Shown: in pieces, positions 3,238-58,133 of the stretch
How positions within the stretch are numbered: the first letter of the stretch is position 1
Layout of the letters: every line of letters begins with the position of its first letter
Origin: Pseudanabaena sp. PCC 7367
GTDB taxonomy: Bacteria; Cyanobacteriota; Cyanobacteriia; Pseudanabaenales; Pseudanabaenaceae
Direction: 5' to 3'
DNA length: 64,000 bases
Assembly: GCF_000317065.1 (NCBI RefSeq)
Contig: NC_019701.1
Span: forward strand, 3,358,001 to 3,422,000
Notes under the pieces: model-generated
Told to the model about the DNA's origin: nothing
The model's database searches: none
Seen by the model: only the letters and a program-made list of their open reading frames with translations
Made by a program: the position numbers and the translations under genes

Positions 3238-5001
3238 TTAGGCGATCGCGCCCAGGCCAAACCAATTCCTATACCTTGCGGTGGCCAACAAGACTAGTAA
3301 TAGGTCAATGCCAACAACACCAGCCACTAATAATTCCGAGCCACCGGTACTAAACCCATAGCTGTGCAAACCAGTACCCAGCACAAAATTAACCCCATAC
3401 CAGGCCATCAACACCGCATTAAAACTGACCACACTGGTTATGGCCATGCCAAAATCACTCAGCCAGCCCACCAGGCGGCCATGCAGTGGAGCCAAATAAC
3501 ACAACAGCGCGATCAAAGCCCAGGTTTCTTTCGGGTCCCAACCCCAGAACCGCCCCCAGGAAAAGTGCGCCCAGATGCCACCAAGAATCACGCCAGTGGT
3601 CAGGAGCAAGACTCCCACTTGCAACACCCGATAATTTAGCTTGGACAGGCTACTAATTCGGTTTTTAGCCTGCGGCATAAAGGCATAGTTAGCTAGCAAA
3701 ATATGACCGAGTCCCATCGCCAGAGCAAAACTGGCATAGCTAAGCGTAATTGTTGGCACATGAATACTGAGCCAGAAATTATCCCGCAATACGGGTACGA
3801 GGGGGTTAATACTGGCATCCAGCACCGCTGGCAAGCTATCTGCCATCACCAGGCACAGCACCGACAAGGGAGCTGCCGCCAAAAGATAGTAGCGAGCACG
3901 GGTGTTTAATTCAAATGCTAGGGCGATCGCGGCGATGCCAAATCCAACCCAGATCACCGATTCATACATATTGGTGACCGGGGGACGGCCGGCGATCTGC
4001 ATTCGCTCAATGAAGCCATAACCCTGAATGCCCAGACCAGCCATGAAGAGGCCGATCGCACCCCAGTAAGCACCAAGGTTTTCTAACTTTTTAAGATTCA
4101 CCGTCAATATCATCACCACAAAGGCCAGAGCATAGAGCTGCCATGCTTTAGCAAATGGGTGCAAGCCATTAAAGTTAACTTCCCGCTGCATTACCGCCAG
4201 GTCTGGATAAACATTAGGACTGAGGTTAATTAGGGTCTCTCGCAGCACTGCCGCCAACTGACCGATCGGCACAAGTTGACTAGAATCCGCTTGATAGGCA
4301 TGTTTGAGCAGTTCATAATCGGCGATCGCGGGGGCGGCCAATTCCGGTTCATAATAATCAATCGCTGCATTCACGCCCACCCATTTACCTTTGGCATCAT
4401 CGGGATGGGGCACAATCGGCAAGGTGCCAGAACCCACCGTGCGCAGCATGAATAAAAGCCGATCTTCGATCGTGAGTGCTTCCCGCTCATCGCGGCTGAG
4501 ATCAATTTTGGCCGATTGCTTTTGCTCTGCTTCTAGGGCGATCGCGGCCAGGTCAGAGGTCATCAGTTCCCTGAAGCTAAAATACTTGCGCTCTGGATCT
4601 AAGCCTAGTTTTTCCTTCAGCGGTCGATAGCTAAATAGAATAAACGGCTCCTGGTTCCAGTCCCGATCGTTGAACCACATCGCCAGGTAGGTCGGCAGAT
4701 AGCTCAGCTTTTCGCCATTTGGCTGTTTATAGCTAGCCCTACCGTGAATCTTACTCACCGTCTCTCGTGCCACCGTATCTAGGGGCTTTTTGCGCCCGTC
4801 TAGCTGCACTGCGATCGTTTGTAAGGCATTCAGCGGTTGCGGTTGAAACTGCCCCAGTGGCATCAGCATAATCAAAATACCCAAGCCCAGACCAATCAGT
4901 AGTTTGAGGAAATTACTAAAGGCTGGTTGAGTATTCTCTGCCGCATCTTGCACAGGTTCTGATTGCAAATCTGGACTAGGAATAGGAGTGGTAGTGGTCA
5001 T
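3238..5001 (-). CDS. ccsA: Cytochrome c synthase subunit CcsA/ResC with extended N-terminal domain
   Basis: This 587-residue membrane protein is one half of the System II heme lyase, which attaches heme to apocytochromes on the outer face of the membrane. The tryptophan-rich WWD segment is clear at about 477-496 (WGRFWGWDPKETWAL). Candidate external heme-ligand histidines are in SIHVP, before the WWD, and H546 (GLHSYGF), after it. Ordinary cyanobacterial CcsA is about 320-350 residues. Here an extra domain of about 230 residues follows the first membrane segment; it contains VQLDGRKKPLDTVARE, a motif I associate with the long CcsA/NrfI-type proteins of anaerobic or nitrite-reducing bacteria. 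It pairs with the ResB-like gene upstream and is probably a second, specialised maturation system. Confidence 0.82.
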   Translation of the reverse strand: MTTTTPIPSPDLQSEPVQDAAENTQPAFSNFLKLLIGLGLGILIMLMPLGQFQPQPLNALQTIAVQLDGRKKPLDTVARETVSKIHGRASYKQPNGEKLSYLPTYLAMWFNDRDWNQEPFILFSYRPLKEKLGLDPERKYFSFRELMTSDLAAIALEAEQKQSAKIDLSRDEREALTIEDRLLFMLRTVGSGTLPIVPHPDDAKGKWVGVNAAIDYYEPELAAPAIADYELLKHAYQADSSQLVPIGQLAAVLRETLINLSPNVYPDLAVMQREVNFNGLHPFAKAWQLYALAFVVMILTVNLKKLENLGAYWGAIGLFMAGLGIQGYGFIERMQIAGRPPVTNMYESVIWVGFGIAAIALAFELNTRARYYLLAAAPLSVLCLVMADSLPAVLDASINPLVPVLRDNFWLSIHVPTITLSYASFALAMGLGHILLANYAFMPQAKNRISSLSKLNYRVLQVGVLLLTTGVILGGIWAHFSWGRFWGWDPKETWALIALLCYLAPLHGRLVGWLSDFGMAITSVVSFNAVLMAWYGVNFVLGTGLHSYGFSTGGSELLVAGVVGIDLLLVLLATARYRNWFGLGAIA

Positions 5002-50737: not shown

Positions 50738-51157
50738 ATGAGTCCCCTACCCGATCGCACTCCCAAAAAACTTAGCCTGGGCAGATTAGAAGCAGAAATT
50801 CTCGGCATAATTTGGGATCTGGGCTCCGCCACCGCAAAAGACATTCACGATCGGATCTTGAGCGATCCCGATCGGGAACTGGCCTATGCTTCGGTTTCCA
50901 CGGTGCTAAATCGCTTGGCTAATAAAGGCTGGCTGAGCATGAGCAAAAAAGGCAGGGCGATCCTGTGGCATCCTTTGGTGTCGCGTCAGGAAGCGCGATC
51001 GCTGCAAGCCTATGAACATCTCAATAATTTCTTGCAGGTGGGAAATGCGGATATTGTGGCGGCATTTGCCGATCAACTCGATCGCGCCAGCCTGGACAAG
51101 ATCGATGCGATCGCCCAGCGGCTACAACAGGCACGACAGGATCGGGAGGCAGAATAA
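50738..51157 (+). CDS. petR: BlaI/CopY-family repressor, PetR-like
   Basis: This 139-residue protein has the BlaI winged-helix domain at about residues 8-85 (LGRLEAEILGIIWDLGSATAKDIHD, then ASVSTVLNRLANKGWLS) and a short helical dimerisation tail. Its stop overlaps the start of the M56 protease gene by one base (TAATG), so the two are co-translated. In Synechocystis the PetR/PetP pair controls the plastocyanin/cytochrome c6 switch: PetR represses petJ and activates petE, and the protease PetP degrades PetR when copper is present or absent as appropriate. The direct neighbourhood of petJ supports orthology. A generic BlaI regulator is the alternative. Confidence 0.82.
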   Translation: MSPLPDRTPKKLSLGRLEAEILGIIWDLGSATAKDIHDRILSDPDRELAYASVSTVLNRLANKGWLSMSKKGRAILWHPLVSRQEARSLQAYEHLNNFLQVGNADIVAAFADQLDRASLDKIDAIAQRLQQARQDREAE

Positions 51158-52059
51158 TGCATTTAGTGATGATTTTGAGTGCGATCGCCTTTGCCTGGGG
51201 GCTGCGCCAAGCCACGCCGCTTTGGTTAGGCAGTAATCGCCAAATATCCAATCAAAATGTTACCCATGACTGGCATCAACGCTGGTGGCGATCGTTGTTT
51301 TTGCTCACCTTCCCGCCCTTGCTGGTGTTAACCACCTCCCTGGCGGTGCTTTGCATGGGGCATCATGGATTGATGGTGGGGCTGCCTGCGAGTAAATCCG
51401 GCTGTGCGATCGCGGTTGGCATTTGCATTTACCTGGTCTTGATCGGGTTGCAATTATTCATTTCGATCCGCAATTCAACCAGGCAGATTGCAACCTACAA
51501 CAAAATCGAGCTAGATGGTAAATCGGCCAGGGTCTTGGAAGTGCCAACCCTGTTTGCAGCGCAGGTGGGATTGTGGCAACCGGAATTAGTGATCAGTCGA
51601 GGCATGTTAACTGAGTTTACGCCCGATCGCCTCCAGGCAGTTTTATGCCACGAACAAGCCCATTACCACTACCACGATACGTTCTGGTTTTTCTGGTTGG
51701 GTTGGTTGCGACAGGCGACATTCTGGCTACCAAATACGGAAGCATTATGGCAGGAATTGCTGTTGTTGCGAGAGCTACGCGCCGATCGCTGGGCTGCCCA
51801 ACAGGTCGATCCGCTGCTTCTGGCAGAATCATTATTGATGACGGTGACCAGTGCGATCGCACCAGATAATTTTTCGGAATTAGATTATGGCGTTGGCCTG
51901 AATCAGTGGAAAGAAGGAGAACAGGGCGATCGATTAGCCGAACGGATCGATGCGTTGCTGGCTGAGGCTGAACCGATCCCTAGACCAAAGCCCTGGTATT
52001 TAACCTGGTTGATCGCGGTTTTGCTGCCGTTTCTTTCGTTGCCGCTGCATTTGAGCTAG
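51157..52059 (+). CDS. petP: M56 (BlaR1-type) membrane metalloprotease, PetP-like
   Basis: This 300-residue protein has four likely membrane segments (about 3-20, 45-68, 83-103 and 280-298). It has a cytoplasmic zinc-protease domain with HEQAH (165-169, in LCHEQAHYHYHD) and a downstream glutamate ligand in RELRADRWA (E206). It lacks the penicillin-binding sensor domain of BlaR1, as PetP does. It is translationally coupled to the repressor gene. The inferred role is to cleave PetR in response to copper, thereby setting petJ expression next door. Confidence 0.83.
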   Translation: MHLVMILSAIAFAWGLRQATPLWLGSNRQISNQNVTHDWHQRWWRSLFLLTFPPLLVLTTSLAVLCMGHHGLMVGLPASKSGCAIAVGICIYLVLIGLQLFISIRNSTRQIATYNKIELDGKSARVLEVPTLFAAQVGLWQPELVISRGMLTEFTPDRLQAVLCHEQAHYHYHDTFWFFWLGWLRQATFWLPNTEALWQELLLLRELRADRWAAQQVDPLLLAESLLMTVTSAIAPDNFSELDYGVGLNQWKEGEQGDRLAERIDALLAEAEPIPRPKPWYLTWLIAVLLPFLSLPLHLS

Positions 52060-52092
52060 GGTTTATCTTCTTTAAAAATAAAAATTTAAAAG

Positions 52093-52770
52093 CTATGCAT
52101 TAAGATCCTGACGATCGCCCTTAATGTCGTCAGCTACTTTGGGCTGTGGCGATCGGGCTTGCAATAACCACACCAGGATCAAACCTGACAACAGACCACT
52201 GATCGCATTGGTGAGAATATAAACGGTTTTGTAATCGATCGATTGGGTCACGATCGCGCTGGTGCCAATCAAGGCGCTGATGCAACGGCTGGCGGCCACG
52301 GCCACGATCCAGGTGGCGGCACGGGGAAATTGTCCATATAGCATTGTCCATTGAAATAGACCCACTGAGGCTCCGCGAATAATCGCAGAAACGGCGATCA
52401 GGTCGATCAATGCGCCGGTGGCGAGGCTGAGCTTGAAGGCGATCGTCAAACTAAAGGGGGCAACGGCGGTTTCGGCCAGGGCGGTGAGGGGAATCCACCA
52501 TTTCGATCGCTTCACGACTTTCCGCAGTAGCAGCCATTGGCCAGCACCGACGATCGCGCCGATGAAGCCATAGCTAATAAATACACCGATCGGCTCGCTG
52601 AAGAGTTTGCCGACGGCGATGCTGTTTTGGCCGCTGATGCTGGTGGTGAAGATGTTGGCGATCACCCATAAAACCAGGAAAACCAGGCCGATTTTGGGGA
52701 GGGGGCGATCGCTGATCGCTATGCTGTCTGCGGGGCTGTCGTCTGGCTCGATCGGCGGCGGGGTTACCAA
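52093..52770 (-). CDS. Integral membrane protein of unknown function
   Basis: The start is TTG at 52770 (MVTPPPIEPDD); there is no better start nearby. The 225-residue protein has a Pro/Asp-rich N-terminus and about six hydrophobic segments (from KIGLVFLVLWVIANIF to GLLSGLILVWLL). Segment two is followed by GAIVGAGQWLLLRK. This short motif is common in a poorly described group of cyanobacterial membrane proteins. No catalytic motif is evident. It converges with petP; the detached CRISPR repeat lies 75 bp upstream. Confidence 0.65.
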   Translation of the reverse strand: MVTPPPIEPDDSPADSIAISDRPLPKIGLVFLVLWVIANIFTTSISGQNSIAVGKLFSEPIGVFISYGFIGAIVGAGQWLLLRKVVKRSKWWIPLTALAETAVAPFSLTIAFKLSLATGALIDLIAVSAIIRGASVGLFQWTMLYGQFPRAATWIVAVAASRCISALIGTSAIVTQSIDYKTVYILTNAISGLLSGLILVWLLQARSPQPKVADDIKGDRQDLNA

Positions 52771-52845
52771 GGCTTATTACTCCTGGGCTTGGGTTGGTTA
52801 GGTTTATTGTGCCCTTTTTCGTGGCGATCGTTGCGTTTTTTGTTG

Positions 52846-52880
52846 GTTTGTCCCCTTGCGGGGTAAAGGAGCGTTGCAAT
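52846..52880 (-). repeat. Detached degenerate CRISPR repeat
   Basis: The 31 bases 52850-52880 are identical to the last 31 bases of the array repeat. Upstream the match breaks: GTTT is followed directly by GTCCCC, as if CA were lost. It lies 298 bp left of the first array repeat, at the end farthest from the inferred leader, where degenerate terminal repeats are normal. Confidence 0.9.
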
Positions 52881-52891
52881 TCTGATTGAGG

Positions 52892-53065
52892 CTAACTTTC
52901 ACTTTGCCTCCTTGGAATAGGCCGCACCTTTCCAGAGCGGATTTGCTCCTTGAGTTCTTCAGCTTGCTGTCTTGCTAGCCGTAAATACTCGTCAACCTGC
53001 TCTTTGGTTTGGAAGCCAATTTCAAAACCATCGAATTCATCGATCTTTTCTTTATCAAGTGCCAT
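52892..53065 (-). CDS. Small protein, 57 aa, inside the CRISPR trailer region
   Basis: ATG at 53065 begins one base after the TAA of a truncated GNAT-like gene. The product starts MALDKEKIDEFDGFEIGFQT, is charged and helical (VDEYLRLARQQAEELKEQI) and ends RPIPRRQSES. It shows no membrane segment. The tight spacing to the upstream frame implies an original two-gene operon. The size is that of a toxin-antitoxin partner, but the family is not recognised. Confidence 0.55.
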   Translation of the reverse strand: MALDKEKIDEFDGFEIGFQTKEQVDEYLRLARQQAEELKEQIRSGKVRPIPRRQSES

Positions 53066-53066
53066 A

Positions 53067-53177
53067 TTACTTATTCAATAACTCTCTTGCTGCTTCAGGT
53101 GTGAGTACCATTGCTCCACTTCCAGACTCTTTTACCTCAAAGCCCAGCTTTTGATAAAAGCCAACTAGCTCTGGCAA
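53067..53177 (-). pseudogene. C-terminal remnant of a GNAT acetyltransferase gene
   Basis: The frame ends with TAA at 53069-53067. Its last 36 codons read LPELVGFYQKLGFEVKESGSG and then AMVLTPEAARELLNK. GFYQKLGFE is the typical C-terminal strand-helix of GNAT N-acetyltransferases. Everything upstream is missing because the first CRISPR repeat begins at 53179. The rest of the enzyme (about 100 residues expected) is not present elsewhere in the window. Confidence 0.6.
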
Positions 53178-53178
53178 G

Positions 53179-54685
53179 GTTTCAGTCCCCTTGCGGGGTA
53201 AAGGAGCGTTGCAATATCACCCAGGGATTTATACTGGCCGTGCGGAACGACGTTTCAGTCCCCTTGCGGGGTAAAGGAGCGTTGCAATCCCTGGACAAAG
53301 AGAATGATGCAGTAACAAGCTATATCAGGTTTCAGTCCCCTTGCGGGGTAAAGGAGCGTTGCAATCCTTTGATTATGGGCAGCTTGATGCAGAGACCAGG
53401 GTTTCAGTCCCCTTGCGGGGTAAAGGAGCGTTGCAATCAGGGGCGAAGGGCAGATTGCTCCAGGAGCTACGCGTTTCAGTCCCCTTGCGGGGTAAAGGAG
53501 CGTTGCAATTGTCGCATCAAGAAGCGAACTTCGCCAGGGTATGTGTTTCAGTCCCCTTGCGGGGTAAAGGAGCGTTGCAATCCCAGCGCACACCACTTTT
53601 GTTTGACCCGACACTAAGGGTTTCAGTCCCCTTGCGGGGTAAAGGAGCGTTGCAATCACAGACAACTTGTGGTGGGTTAAAACGATCGAGGCCACATTGT
53701 TTCAGTCCCCTTGCGGGGTAAAGGAGCGTTGCAATCCAACTATCAGAAATAAGTCTTTGCTTGTTTTGCCGTTTCAGTCCCCTTGCGGGGTAAAGGAGCG
53801 TTGCAATTCCAGAATTTGACGCGGAATTGGGGGAGGTGAATGTTTCAGTCCCCTTGCGGGGTAAAGGAGCGTTGCAATAAATGCCTGTAAGTCGCTTAAG
53901 GTAAAAGCCATATGTTTCAGTCCCCTTGCGGGGTAAAGGAGCGTTGCAATACGATTCGCAAGAGATCGCCCTAATGCGAGTTAAAGGTTTCAGTCCCCTT
54001 GCGGGGTAAAGGAGCGTTGCAATTCGCTGCCAATTCTTATCCTTATTGGCCTGGATTGTTTCAGTCCCCTTGCGGGGTAAAGGAGCGTTGCAATTTTGCC
54101 ACCGCCAGATTGGAGCCAAACAGCTTAATGTTTCAGTCCCCTTGCGGGGTAAAGGAGCGTTGCAATCCGATCGCCTTGCGCAACGCCTTAACTATGTTTT
54201 GCCTGTTTCAGTCCCCTTGCGGGGTAAAGGAGCGTTGCAATCGACTGATGCCTTACACAATAACTCAACCACACTGAGTTTCAGTCCCCTTGCGGGGTAA
54301 AGGAGCGTTGCAATAATGATCGAGGCATGATTAACTACCCTCCTTTGGTGTTTGTTTCAGTCCCCTTGCGGGGTAAAGGAGCGTTGCAATATCCAGGGCT
54401 GGGAGCGGTGCGGGTAGAGTTGTAAAAGTTTCAGTCCCCTTGCGGGGTAAAGGAGCGTTGCAATGTTACAAGCCAACTGCACGAACTGCACAAAATTATG
54501 TTTCAGTCCCCTTGCGGGGTAAAGGAGCGTTGCAATTAGAGGCATGTGGGGCAAGTTACAGCGGATGCCCTGGGTTTCAGTCCCCTTGCGGGGTAAAGGA
54601 GCGTTGCAATCCAGCCCATGCCTGCATACCTAGGACAATCAATGCATGGTTTCAGTCCCCTTGCGGGGTAAAGGAGCGTTGCAAT
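53179..54685 (-). CRISPR. CRISPR array, 21 repeats and 20 spacers
   Basis: Twenty-one 37-bp repeats, identical as far as I can see, begin GTTTCAGTCCCC and end GAGCGTTGCAAT on the plus strand. They start at 53179, 53252, 53329, 53401, 53473, 53545, 53620, 53699, 53771, 53842, 53914, 53987, 54058, 54130, 54205, 54278, 54354, 54428, 54500, 54574 and 54649. Spacers are 34-42 bp and all look different. The inner CCCCTTGCGGGG can form a short hairpin. On the minus strand the repeat ends GGGGACTGAAAC, the usual 3' end that gives the ACTGAAAC crRNA handle, so transcription is inferred to run leftwards from a leader right of 54685. No cas genes are in the window. Frames reading through the repeats (PARGLK, FQSPCGVKERC) are artefacts. 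Confidence 0.98.
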
Positions 54686-55070
54686 CGCAGGTATCTGAAA
54701 CCAAGACCCAGAAAGACTTCCAGGCGCTACCTGCGCGAACCCCTTAAAATGTTAGTACAACAGCACAACAAGAAAAGAGGTCGAAATCCTCAATCGCCTA
54801 CTGAAAAAGCGATCGAGACCAAACGCGAAACTATGGGGTTTTCAAGGTTCACTATAGGTTCGCGCGGAACCTGAATTAAAAATAACCAATTTCACCACAG
54901 TTTGTCCAGCGATCGCACCTTAAGAAATATAACAACCCACCCCAACACAAAACTTCAAACAACTAAAACAAACCCGATCGCGCCATTGAAACATTATGGA
55001 ATTTAAGATAATCGGCAATGTTTTAAGCTATATTGCTAAAGTTGAATAGAAGTTTACCGTTGTTCCAACC
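54686..55070 (-). promoter_or_regulatory. Probable CRISPR leader and chlI upstream region
   Basis: It adjoins the repeat end expected to face the leader. GCGCGAACC (near 54731-54740) and GGTTCGCGCGGAACC (near 54855-54870) are complementary elements about 115 bp apart. In the array direction the stretch contains GAACCTTGAAAACC. The chlI promoter must lie in the right part of the same interval. No gene was found. Confidence 0.5.
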
Positions 55071-56144
55071 TTGACCGTAACCCAAGCCAAGCCCCTAACC
55101 CAAAAACGTCCTGTCTTCCCCTTCAGCGCCATTGTTGGGCAGGAAGAAATGAAGCTAGCCTTGATCCTCAACGTGATCGATCCCAAGATCGGCGGCGTAA
55201 TGATCATGGGCGATCGCGGCACGGGCAAATCCACCACGATCCGCGCCCTCGCCAACCTGCTCCCAGAAATCCAAATTGTCGCCGACGATCCCTTCAGCAG
55301 CGATCCAGTCGATGCCGACCTGCAAAGCGACGAAGTACGGCAACGGCTCGCCCAGGGAGAGCAACTACCGATCGCCGCCAAGCAAGTATTGATGGTCGAT
55401 CTGCCTTTGGGAGCCACCGAAGATCGCGTCTGCGGCACGATCGACATTGAAAAAGCCCTCACCGAAGGGGTCAAAGCCTTCGAGCCCGGGCTGCTCGCCA
55501 AAGCAAATCGCGGCATTTTATACATCGACGAAGTAAACCTGCTCGACGATCACCTGGTTGATGTGCTGCTGGATTCCGCCGCCTCCGGTTGGAACACCGT
55601 TGAGCGTGAAGGCATCTCGATCCGCCACCCGGCCAGGTTTGTGCTGGTGGGCTCTGGCAACCCCGAAGAAGGCGAGCTCAGGCCCCAACTGCTCGATCGG
55701 TTCGGGATGCACGCCGAGATCCGCACCGTCAAAGAACCAGAACTGCGGGTCAAGATCGTAGAACAACGCACCGAGTTCGATCGGGAACCCCATGAGTTTA
55801 TCGATCACTACCAAACCGAGCAGGTTGATTTACAAAAGAAGATCGTCACCGCCCAGGAAAACCTCAACGCCGTAGGCATTCCCCATGAGTTGCGCCTGCA
55901 CATTTCCCAGGTTTGTGCCCAGCTAGACGTAGACGGGTTGCGCGGTGATATTGTTACCAATCGCGCTGCGAAGGCTCTGGCTGCGTTTGAGGGTAAGTCA
56001 GAGGTGGATGTGGATGAAATTAAACGGGTGATCACGCTCTGTTTGCGGCATCGCCTGCGGAAAGACCCGCTCGAATCGATCGATTCTGGCTATAAGGTGC
56101 AGAAGGTCTTCGCTGAGGTCTTTGGCTTAGCGGAAGCAGAATAA
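55071..56144 (+). CDS. chlI: Magnesium chelatase subunit ChlI
   Basis: The start is TTG at 55071, matching the expected N-terminus ([27 protein letters not shown]). The 357-residue AAA+ ATPase has Walker [10 protein letters not shown] (about 47-55), then [22 protein letters not shown], and Walker [17 protein letters not shown]. The end is [18 protein letters not shown]. With ChlD and ChlH it inserts magnesium into protoporphyrin IX, the first step of chlorophyll synthesis. Length is that of the cyanobacterial enzyme. The fmt gene starts one base after its stop. Confidence 0.97.
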
Positions 56145-56145
56145 A

Positions 56146-57096
56146 ATGCGGGTTGTCTTCTTTGGTACGCCTGACTTTGCCGTGCCCACGCTCCAACATT
56201 TGCTCAATGCCGCCGATTTTGAGGTATTGGGGGTGGTGACGCAACCCGATGCCAGACGGGGACGCGGTAAAAAAATGACCCCCTCGCCAGTGAAGCAGGT
56301 GGCGATCGAACATGCTCTAAAAGTTTGGCAGCCCAATCGCCTGAAACGAGATCAAGCAACTCTGGCGGAGCTGGAAGCCCTGCAAGCAGATGTGTTTGTG
56401 GTGGTGGCCTATGGGCAAATTTTGTCACAGCAAATTCTGGACATGCCGAAGTATGGCTGTATTAATGTGCATGGATCTTTGTTGCCCAAATATCGCGGTT
56501 GTGCCCCGGTGCAATGGGCGATCGCTAATGGTGAACAGGTCACGGGCATCACCACAATGCAAATGGACAAAGGGATCGACACGGGCGATATGTTGCTGAT
56601 CGCAGATCTGGCGATCGAAGCGGCAGACAATGCCGAGACGCTCTCACCCAAATTGGCGGAATTGGGTGCAAACCTGCTGATCGATACGCTGCAACAGATC
56701 GAGACTATTAAACCTCAACCCCAGGATCATAGCCAGAATTCCTATGCACCGATGATTGGCAAGGAAGACTGGCAGATTGATTGGCAAAGTGCCGCGATCG
56801 AGATTCACAACAAAGTGCGCGGCTTCTATCCCAATTGTTTTACTGACTATCAAGGCCAACGGCTGAAAATTCTGGAAACGCAATTATTAAAGCCAGCAGA
56901 GCTTAATGAGCAGGCTAAGGTAGAAATCGGCGCGATCGCCCAACTGGTCAAAAAATCTGGCTTTGCGATTCAAACCAGCACTGAACCACTGTTGATTACC
57001 AAATTACAACCCGCTGGCAAGCGCCCCCAATCCGGCTGGGATTTTGCCAACGGCGCAAGGCTGGAGGTTGGGCAATTGCTATTTCCACCAGCCTGA
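56146..57096 (+). CDS. fmt: Methionyl-tRNA formyltransferase
   Basis: This 316-residue enzyme formylates initiator Met-tRNA. The N-terminal formyltransferase domain has RVVFFGTPDFAVPTL, the folate-site CINVHGSLLPKYRGCAPVQWAI with the catalytic Asn-His, and an Asp in DKGIDTGDML. The C-terminal OB-like domain starts near residue 205. It begins one base after chlI, so the two are translationally coupled; the pairing appears fortuitous. Confidence 0.96.
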   Translation: MRVVFFGTPDFAVPTLQHLLNAADFEVLGVVTQPDARRGRGKKMTPSPVKQVAIEHALKVWQPNRLKRDQATLAELEALQADVFVVVAYGQILSQQILDMPKYGCINVHGSLLPKYRGCAPVQWAIANGEQVTGITTMQMDKGIDTGDMLLIADLAIEAADNAETLSPKLAELGANLLIDTLQQIETIKPQPQDHSQNSYAPMIGKEDWQIDWQSAAIEIHNKVRGFYPNCFTDYQGQRLKILETQLLKPAELNEQAKVEIGAIAQLVKKSGFAIQTSTEPLLITKLQPAGKRPQSGWDFANGARLEVGQLLFPPA

Positions 57097-57142
57097 TTAA
57101 CTGCTTACAGCTTTAGCAATTTAGCAAAGCAGAGAAGGATCT

Positions 57143-57688
57143 TTATTTCGATTGCATGAATCTGCTGGCCATTGCCATTGCATCCCCAAGATCCACATCG
57201 CCATCCCCATCGGAATCCAGGAAGGAATTGAGCACCGAATTGCTGGCGGTTGCACCACTAGCAGCTTCCGGCTTCTTGGCTCCCGTTTGCAAGAAATTCA
57301 GCACCACTGGCACCAGGGTTGGTAGCATCGATTGCACTATTTCCATACTCAATCCAGTTTTTTGGGCGACTTCCTGGGCAGTTTGTTGTTGCTCTCGCTC
57401 CGACATTACCGATTGCACCGCTTCGGGGTTGGCATTGGTGCTGGCAAAGCGATTCACGATTTCTTCGACCTGTTGCTGTCCTTGCGCCGATCGCTTTTGC
57501 TTTAATGACGATCGCACATGCTTACCCACCACCGACATCAATAATTGCTGGGTCGATTGGTTGGCATCATTACCAGCAGCCCCACCAGTCAAACTCTGCA
57601 CCGTATTAAGAATACTGCCGAGCTGGCTTTGGCTTGCCTGTTGCTCTGGATTGTTGAGCGCACCTACCACCTGGTCAAAAAGTCCCAT
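57143..57688 (-). CDS. DUF937-like protein with a C-terminal EF-hand-type loop
   Basis: This 181-residue soluble protein begins MGLFDQVVGALNNP, typical of DUF937 (YidB-like) proteins. It has the helical QEVAQKTGLSMEIVQSMLPTLVPVVLNFL region (about 104-133). Residues 158-169 read DSDGDGDVDLGD, with Asp at EF-hand positions 1, 3, 5, 9 and 12, so calcium binding is likely. The linker between is Ala/Ser-rich. The role is unknown. It converges on fmt. Confidence 0.78.
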   Translation of the reverse strand: MGLFDQVVGALNNPEQQASQSQLGSILNTVQSLTGGAAGNDANQSTQQLLMSVVGKHVRSSLKQKRSAQGQQQVEEIVNRFASTNANPEAVQSVMSEREQQQTAQEVAQKTGLSMEIVQSMLPTLVPVVLNFLQTGAKKPEAASGATASNSVLNSFLDSDGDGDVDLGDAMAMASRFMQSK

Positions 57689-58133
57689 ATTATTAGTCTT
57701 TCTCCTGTCTTAATAGATAACAAGTTTTTTAGAGTTATTTTACGTAGATCTATAGATTAAACCGATCGCTAAACCATCAATTTAAGCCGCGATCTAAATC
57801 AATACTATTTCAGTATATCTACTCAGCTCTAATTAGGTTTTTGCGTTTGTAATATTCCGCCACGAAAAGCAGAGATAACTTTGCGGCATTCAAAGCACTT
57901 CTGTAAATATCTATTCGATTACAAACGCTCCTAACCCAAGAATAAGGTTCTTAGACGATCGTCGGGGTGACAAGTTGGAAATCATAAAAATTTGTCAAAC
58001 TCGGATTGCCTCATAAAAATTACGATCGCTGACTGCAAAGGCCAGCAGCAGCATTAACTTTAAATCAGTCCTAAATCACCAAAAATAGGGATAGGATTGA
58101 ATATTAGATCACTAGATCCATCGACTAACCGCA
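57689..58133. other. Intergenic region with a candidate structured element
   Basis: No protein gene was found. GCGTTTGTAAT (57843-57853) and ATTACAAACGC (57918-57928) form a perfect 11-bp inverted repeat that encloses a possible CCGC/GCGG inner stem. Confidence 0.5.
57843..57928. ncRNA. Candidate structured RNA (11-bp closing stem)
   Basis: The perfect stem above would enclose 64 nt, including CCGCCACG and TTTGCGG that can pair in a second helix. It fits no RNA family known to me. Strand and expression cannot be told. An operator or chance repeat is the alternative. Confidence 0.25.

Follow-up and report, generated by a model that had tools for sequence, protein, structure and literature searches.

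A gene-sized interval, possibly a giant spacer, at the trailer end of a CRISPR array in Pseudanabaena sp. PCC 7367

The array, its leader and its terminal repeat

The window, by which we mean the whole 64,000-nucleotide stretch analyzed here (G000:C2:3358001-3422000), comes from Pseudanabaena sp. PCC 7367, whose genome of 4.89 Mb is assembled in 2 contigs and is 100% complete. On its minus strand lies a CRISPR array (53179..54685) made up of 21 perfect 37-nt repeats with 20 spacers, each 34-42 nt long, between them. The first perfect repeat, R1, starts at 53179, and 20 further perfect 37-nt repeats follow it. The DNA to the right of 54685 is similar, by sequence comparison, to the flank of a second array with an identical repeat (C2:841794-842500, hereafter the 841 kb array); this leader (54686..54920, minus strand) has a right-hand limit that is approximate. 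Its core, AACTATGCGGTTTTC, is common to the other arrays of the same repeat family with some changes, and is altered in the array at C2:3888 kb. Because the leader lies on the right, the array is transcribed from the minus strand, from right to left, and the degenerate repeat at its left, R0 (52846..52880, minus strand), marks the trailer end. A gap of 298 bp separates R0 from R1, and on the far side of R0 lies a flanking gene (52093-52770) whose homologues are just 27-35% identical among the listed loci of relatives. On re-reading the sequence, we obtained the same positions for R0, R1, and the gap as an initial annotation of this locus.

R0 is damaged in its 3' handle, with TGAAAC lost or, alternatively, TG deleted. 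Positions 52850-52880 are identical to repeat positions 7-37 in 31 of 31 nt (100%), with the first six bases of the repeat (GTTTCA) lost; an alternative alignment with a 2-nt gap shortens these bases to GTTT and places the start at 52846. The Cas6-type hairpin CCCC-GCAA-GGGG is intact in R0, as it is in R1, and R0 could therefore still serve Cas6. R0 and R1 have the same predicted RNA fold, and that of R0 is not exceptional (z -0.69).

We read the six arrays of this repeat family in the genome, namely those of the window and at 3888, 3090, 3106, 3694, and 841 kb. In five of the six (all except the 841 kb array, whose end repeat is perfect), the trailer-end repeat is cut at the identical point, with GTCCCC... 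kept and GTTTCA lost. The spacing between R0 and R1 is 77, 74, 74, and 75 nt in the other four arrays with a cut R0, versus 335 nt in the window. Immediately outside R0 there is a T-rich flank (52820..52849, plus strand) with 15 T of 30, and such a flank, with 13-19 T of 30, lies outside every trailer-end repeat of the six arrays. The count at R1 is only 8, close to the background mean of 7.8, while at least 15 T occur in 1.4% of background 30-mers. The initial annotation had described R0 as a detached repeat, which is misleading: given the cut point shared by five of the six arrays and the T-rich flank, R0 is the array's own end repeat, an ordinary terminal repeat with leader-distal damage. 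The trailer ends of this genome share one damage point, and it adjoins the presumed Cas6 cut site, the position of which is that of Cas6 systems in general.

R0 therefore has both marks of a terminal repeat, a leader-distal location and a degenerate 3' end. A study of S. agalactiae (PMC4466440) and a review (PMC8047081) describe 3' damage in terminal repeats as general in CRISPR arrays. R0 resembles the repeats described there in that its 3' (leader-distal) end is damaged and the rest conserved, and its sole departure from them is its abnormal distance from R1.

A terminator-like hairpin followed by a T run lies on the plus strand at 52820-52845, within the trailer flank. A terminator scan returned no more matches than shuffled sequence (3 vs. 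a mean of 3.3), and another terminator-like hairpin, at 53175-53160, was set aside as no more than shuffles yield. Terminator-like hairpins opposing array transcription are found at two trailer ends, in the window and at 3694 kb, the latter recognized by eye.

The 298-bp interval and its coding content

The interval between R0 and R1 (52881..53178, minus strand) has sharp borders: no base is missing from R1 where it meets the interval, nor from the inner end of R0. In this respect it is placed as a spacer is, between two repeats with exact borders, with 5-11 nt of possible microhomology at R1. Its length is not that of a spacer: the 68 other intervals of the six family arrays, counted with the window's 298-nt interval left out, measure 34-49 nt (mean 38.7, sd 3.2). 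As the spacing between R0 and R1 is normal in the other four arrays with a cut R0, the 298 bp occupy the slot of the oldest spacer. Expressed in repeat-spacer units, the distance is 335/73.5 = 4.56, which is not near an integer. The GC content of the interval is 0.436, versus 0.559 in the neighboring gene. We found no repeat relics inside the 298 bp (862 and 291 of 1000 shuffles did at least as well as the best local scores), no direct duplication of at least 5 nt between its two 40-nt ends, and, at the score cut used, no similarity to the spacers of the six family arrays. A lack of HIP1-type GATCG sites (0 vs. about 2 expected) was considered as a possible signature and dropped as not significant.

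As the initial annotation had reported, the interval holds a gene for a small protein of 57 residues, together with the 36 final codons of an acetyltransferase gene of the GNAT family that breaks off at the repeat border. The GNAT tail (53067..53177, minus strand) runs from 53177 to 53070, with its TAA stop at 53069-53067, and is truncated at the border of R1. One nucleotide lies between this stop and the ATG of the 57-aa ORF (52892..53065, minus strand), an operon-like arrangement, and both reading frames point in the direction of array transcription.

The assignment of the tail to the GNAT family rests on its C-terminal FYxKLGF segment, which lies at the domain end as in other members; Pfam applied to the 36-residue fragment alone makes no GNAT call. 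The peptide GFYQKLGFEV occurs in 17 stretches among about 85,000 species genomes, and 15 of these, judged by eye and not by Pfam scan, lie in a frame with an upstream G-x-G-I/L-G and resemble GNAT C-terminal regions. A G-x-G-I/L-G stretch is typical of GNATs. The two exceptions are L080, a 57-residue frame lacking G-x-G-I/L-G, and L084, which also lacks the motif. In the genome's own complement the best match to the tail is L016 (39% identity, E 0.04), which Pfam identifies as a GNAT (PF00583, 1.6e-12). Across the own genome, 377 phylum genomes, and plasmids, the tail matched three loci besides the window: L016, L029, which is GNAT-like but falls under the Pfam cut-off, and L030, which we discarded, as the match lies inside a 540-aa frame that reads, by eye, like a transhydrogenase subunit. 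The codon score of the tail is neutral (0.04 bits per codon, 35 codons scored). The initial annotation had raised the prospect of an intact homolog that naturally starts at the TTG at 53177; L016 and most of the motif-bearing frames instead extend well upstream of that point, in line with a truncation.

We also searched for the missing 5' part beyond the array, as the initial annotation had suggested. With 10 GNATs as tblastn queries over 51000-58000, matches at E<=0.01 occurred only at the known tail, and the next-best match outside it had an E of 0.045. These 10 proteins (8 of the 17 motif matches, together with L016 and L029) were all chosen for their resemblance to the tail segment, which by itself accounts for part of their agreement there. 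In 7 of the 10, the alignment extends 5-11 nt into the repeat, although local alignments can overrun by chance.

For the 57-aa ORF, length alone is weak evidence of a gene, as 302 of 3000 shuffled versions of the 298 bp contain an ATG ORF this long. Its codon score of 0.25 bits per codon is gene-like: it falls at the 23rd percentile among 88 real in-frame stretches, and 2.3% of 43 open stretches read out of frame score as high. In protein searches of the own genome with 38 relatives, 386 phylum genomes, plasmids, and phages, the window alone was matched, and the same was true of viral contigs and about 85,000 species genomes searched at a sensitivity suited to close relatives. Weak family matches (PHROG, E 0.005-0.11; NCBIfam, E 0.04) were put down to chance. 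With codon use that looks alive and no relatives found, the ORF could be read as a working cargo gene, kept at the trailer end and expressed from the array's leader transcript, a reading to which we give hardly any credence. Were it true, the array would act as a promoter for a small protein.

How the interval may have arisen

The initial annotation offered two origins for this debris, namely that the array landed in, or recombined into, an acetyltransferase-small protein operon, or that a long fragment was taken up as a giant spacer at the trailer end. The second is now the best supported and has, in our estimate, about an even chance of being right: the 298 bp would be a giant spacer, a single foreign block joined between R0 and R1. 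It is not proven, as no intact source was found. A block of probably foreign DNA, plasmid- or phage-like, would have been cut from an operon encoding a GNAT and the 57-aa protein, and would have been joined in where the oldest spacer belongs, between R0 and R1. The most likely route would be faulty spacer acquisition, either early in the life of the array or at an internal repeat.

The layout of the interval bears on this directly. GNAT similarity reaches the R1 border, and 11 nt separate the stop of the 57-aa ORF from R0, leaving no room for the two parts of a split spacer of at least 34 nt. Thus, the block looks to have been joined as one piece between repeats rather than inserted into an older spacer. 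Searches for the donor covered several collections. The initial annotation had proposed finding an intact operon of a GNAT and the 57-aa gene in this genome or its relatives; we looked in these, in the 386-genome phylum sample, and, at a sensitivity suited to close relatives, in about 85,000 species genomes, and no such operon was found, the window alone matching the 57-aa protein. A blastn search of the 298 bp against phages and a search of viral contigs by peptide patterns gave no match. In plasmids, a blastn search with 52800-54900 gave 6 listed best places that all start at or beyond query base 377, which is window position 53176, again with no match to the 298 bp. These collections are probably thin for cyanobacterial elements. 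As no source operon was found, the foreign origin of the block, its arrival in one step, and its joining by Cas1-Cas2 are what we infer from its placement and content.

Some features count against a clean capture. Cas1-Cas2 normally acts as a ruler for spacers, and the 298 nt exceed the proper length about 8-fold. Our searches of the genome turned up a single Cas1, that of a type I-C system with a different repeat, so that the array is now without a known integrase of its own. A Cas6 gene and a type III locus with Cas10 are present at C2:0.54 Mb, and the six scattered arrays of this family are apparently served in trans by both. The interval is probably inert today, being overlong for a normal crRNA, though R0 keeps a hairpin that Cas6 could cut. 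If the giant-spacer reading is right, this would be another natural case, in a bacterium distant from Sulfolobus, of a gene-sized block joined between CRISPR repeats, and the length ruler of spacer capture could fail by a factor of eight.

A second explanation, to which we attach an appreciable but clearly minor probability, is illegitimate recombination within the array, whereby a foreign fragment replaced the oldest spacer or pushed it aside, its GNAT end being joined at a short match to the end of the repeat (GAAAC). The 7 of 10 GNAT alignments that enter the repeat by 5-11 nt would permit such a join (allowing for chance overrun), and the apparently exact border could for the same reason hide a short microhomology. 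Larger intruders do enter the arrays of this genome, as the 1096-nt interval with transposase ORFs in its I-C array illustrates. Nevertheless, the event would require near-total loss of the old spacer together with an almost exact stop at both repeat borders, and the ends of the 298 bp show no direct duplication of at least 5 nt.

It is less probable again, and in our view decidedly unlikely, that R0 is a relic of an older array with the same repeat and that the 298 bp were left from inter-array DNA after a deletion. A possible parallel is an array in a relative (G022:C149) whose terminal repeat belongs to a different type and stands 163 nt away from its neighbor, and the 841 kb array, which has the window's repeat and ends perfectly, suggests that R1 could itself be an end. 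R0 differs from the G022:C149 case in matching its own repeat type in 31 of 31 nt; the T-rich trailer flank is at R0 (15 T of 30) and not at R1 (8 of 30); and the deletion would need two exact repeat borders by coincidence.

That the array jumped into, and split, an operon of the GNAT and the 57-aa gene is the other origin raised in the initial annotation, and the cut of the GNAT exactly at the first perfect repeat is what speaks for it. This event should leave the GNAT 5' part beyond the array, yet it is absent on the leader side and elsewhere in 51000-58000, which leaves the landing unsupported. In addition, the terminal repeat R0 sits past the debris, and no gene like the 57-aa ORF was found in 38 relatives or the rest of the 386-genome phylum sample. 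We therefore consider it very improbable. An assembly error is scarcely credible either: repeats are common misassembly sites, but the genome is in 2 contigs and complete, and unique DNA with two same-direction ORFs lies between the repeats.

Comparison with other irregular arrays

The closest published counterpart is locus F of S. solfataricus, for which PMC4390879 reports an 899-bp fragment between two repeats, partly matching a pNOB8-like conjugative plasmid and equal in size to about 13 repeats and 14 spacers. The two loci are alike in having a large foreign-looking block between repeats where spacer size is otherwise strict. Set against that fragment, the 298 bp correspond in position, length, and coding content, with a foreign origin that is presumed here. 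They differ in that our block has no known source and spans 4.56 units. This counts against the giant-spacer reading, given that the precedent keeps near-integer units; a near-integer size is noted for that one published case and is not clearly defining. Literature on giant spacers or on genes within arrays yielded nothing direct beyond the S. solfataricus case; PMC8026048 deals with the size of arrays. The irregularity of our array is of a rare but already documented type, of which it is a further example.

Comparing 12 arrays (11 and the window), we found an oversize trailer-end interval in 2, that of the window (335) and G022:C149 (163), a count limited by one array (the first of L064) that starts 47 nt from a contig end, another (the second of L065) that reaches a contig end, and an extra degenerate repeat just outside the L063 array that was missed by the script. 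In G022:C149 (L065), where the array lies near the contig start, the terminal repeat sits in an inverted polypyrimidine repeat 163 nt from the next repeat, and polypyrimidine flanks are present at both repeats.

The genome's own I-C array (94 repeats; L062 16338-17434, near C2:2212338) includes one interval of 1096 nt that contains a mobile element: one of its frames encodes a DDE_3 transposase, and another, an HTH frame, weakly matches IS630. The two cases are alike in that an interval of abnormal length, with coding DNA, lies within an array; the 298 bp differ in having neither a transposase nor a direct end duplication of at least 5 nt.

CreTA toxin-antitoxin RNA pairs guard CRISPR systems, lie among cas genes, and have a repeat-like antitoxin RNA. 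We considered such a pair for this locus and rejected it, as the window, at 3.36-3.42 Mb, is distant from the genome's only Cas1 and RAMP matches, which are at C2:2.2 Mb and 0.54 Mb.

Repeat types are also mixed within this family. The array at C2:3888362-3888759 (L011) has degenerate repeats at its leader end, and one of its repeats, 86% identical to that of the window, bears a window-type second half, AGCAATGCAAT. This hybrid repeat suggests, from its sequence, that exchange may have taken place between arrays of differing repeat types. The arrays at 3090 kb and 3106 kb also mix two repeat types.
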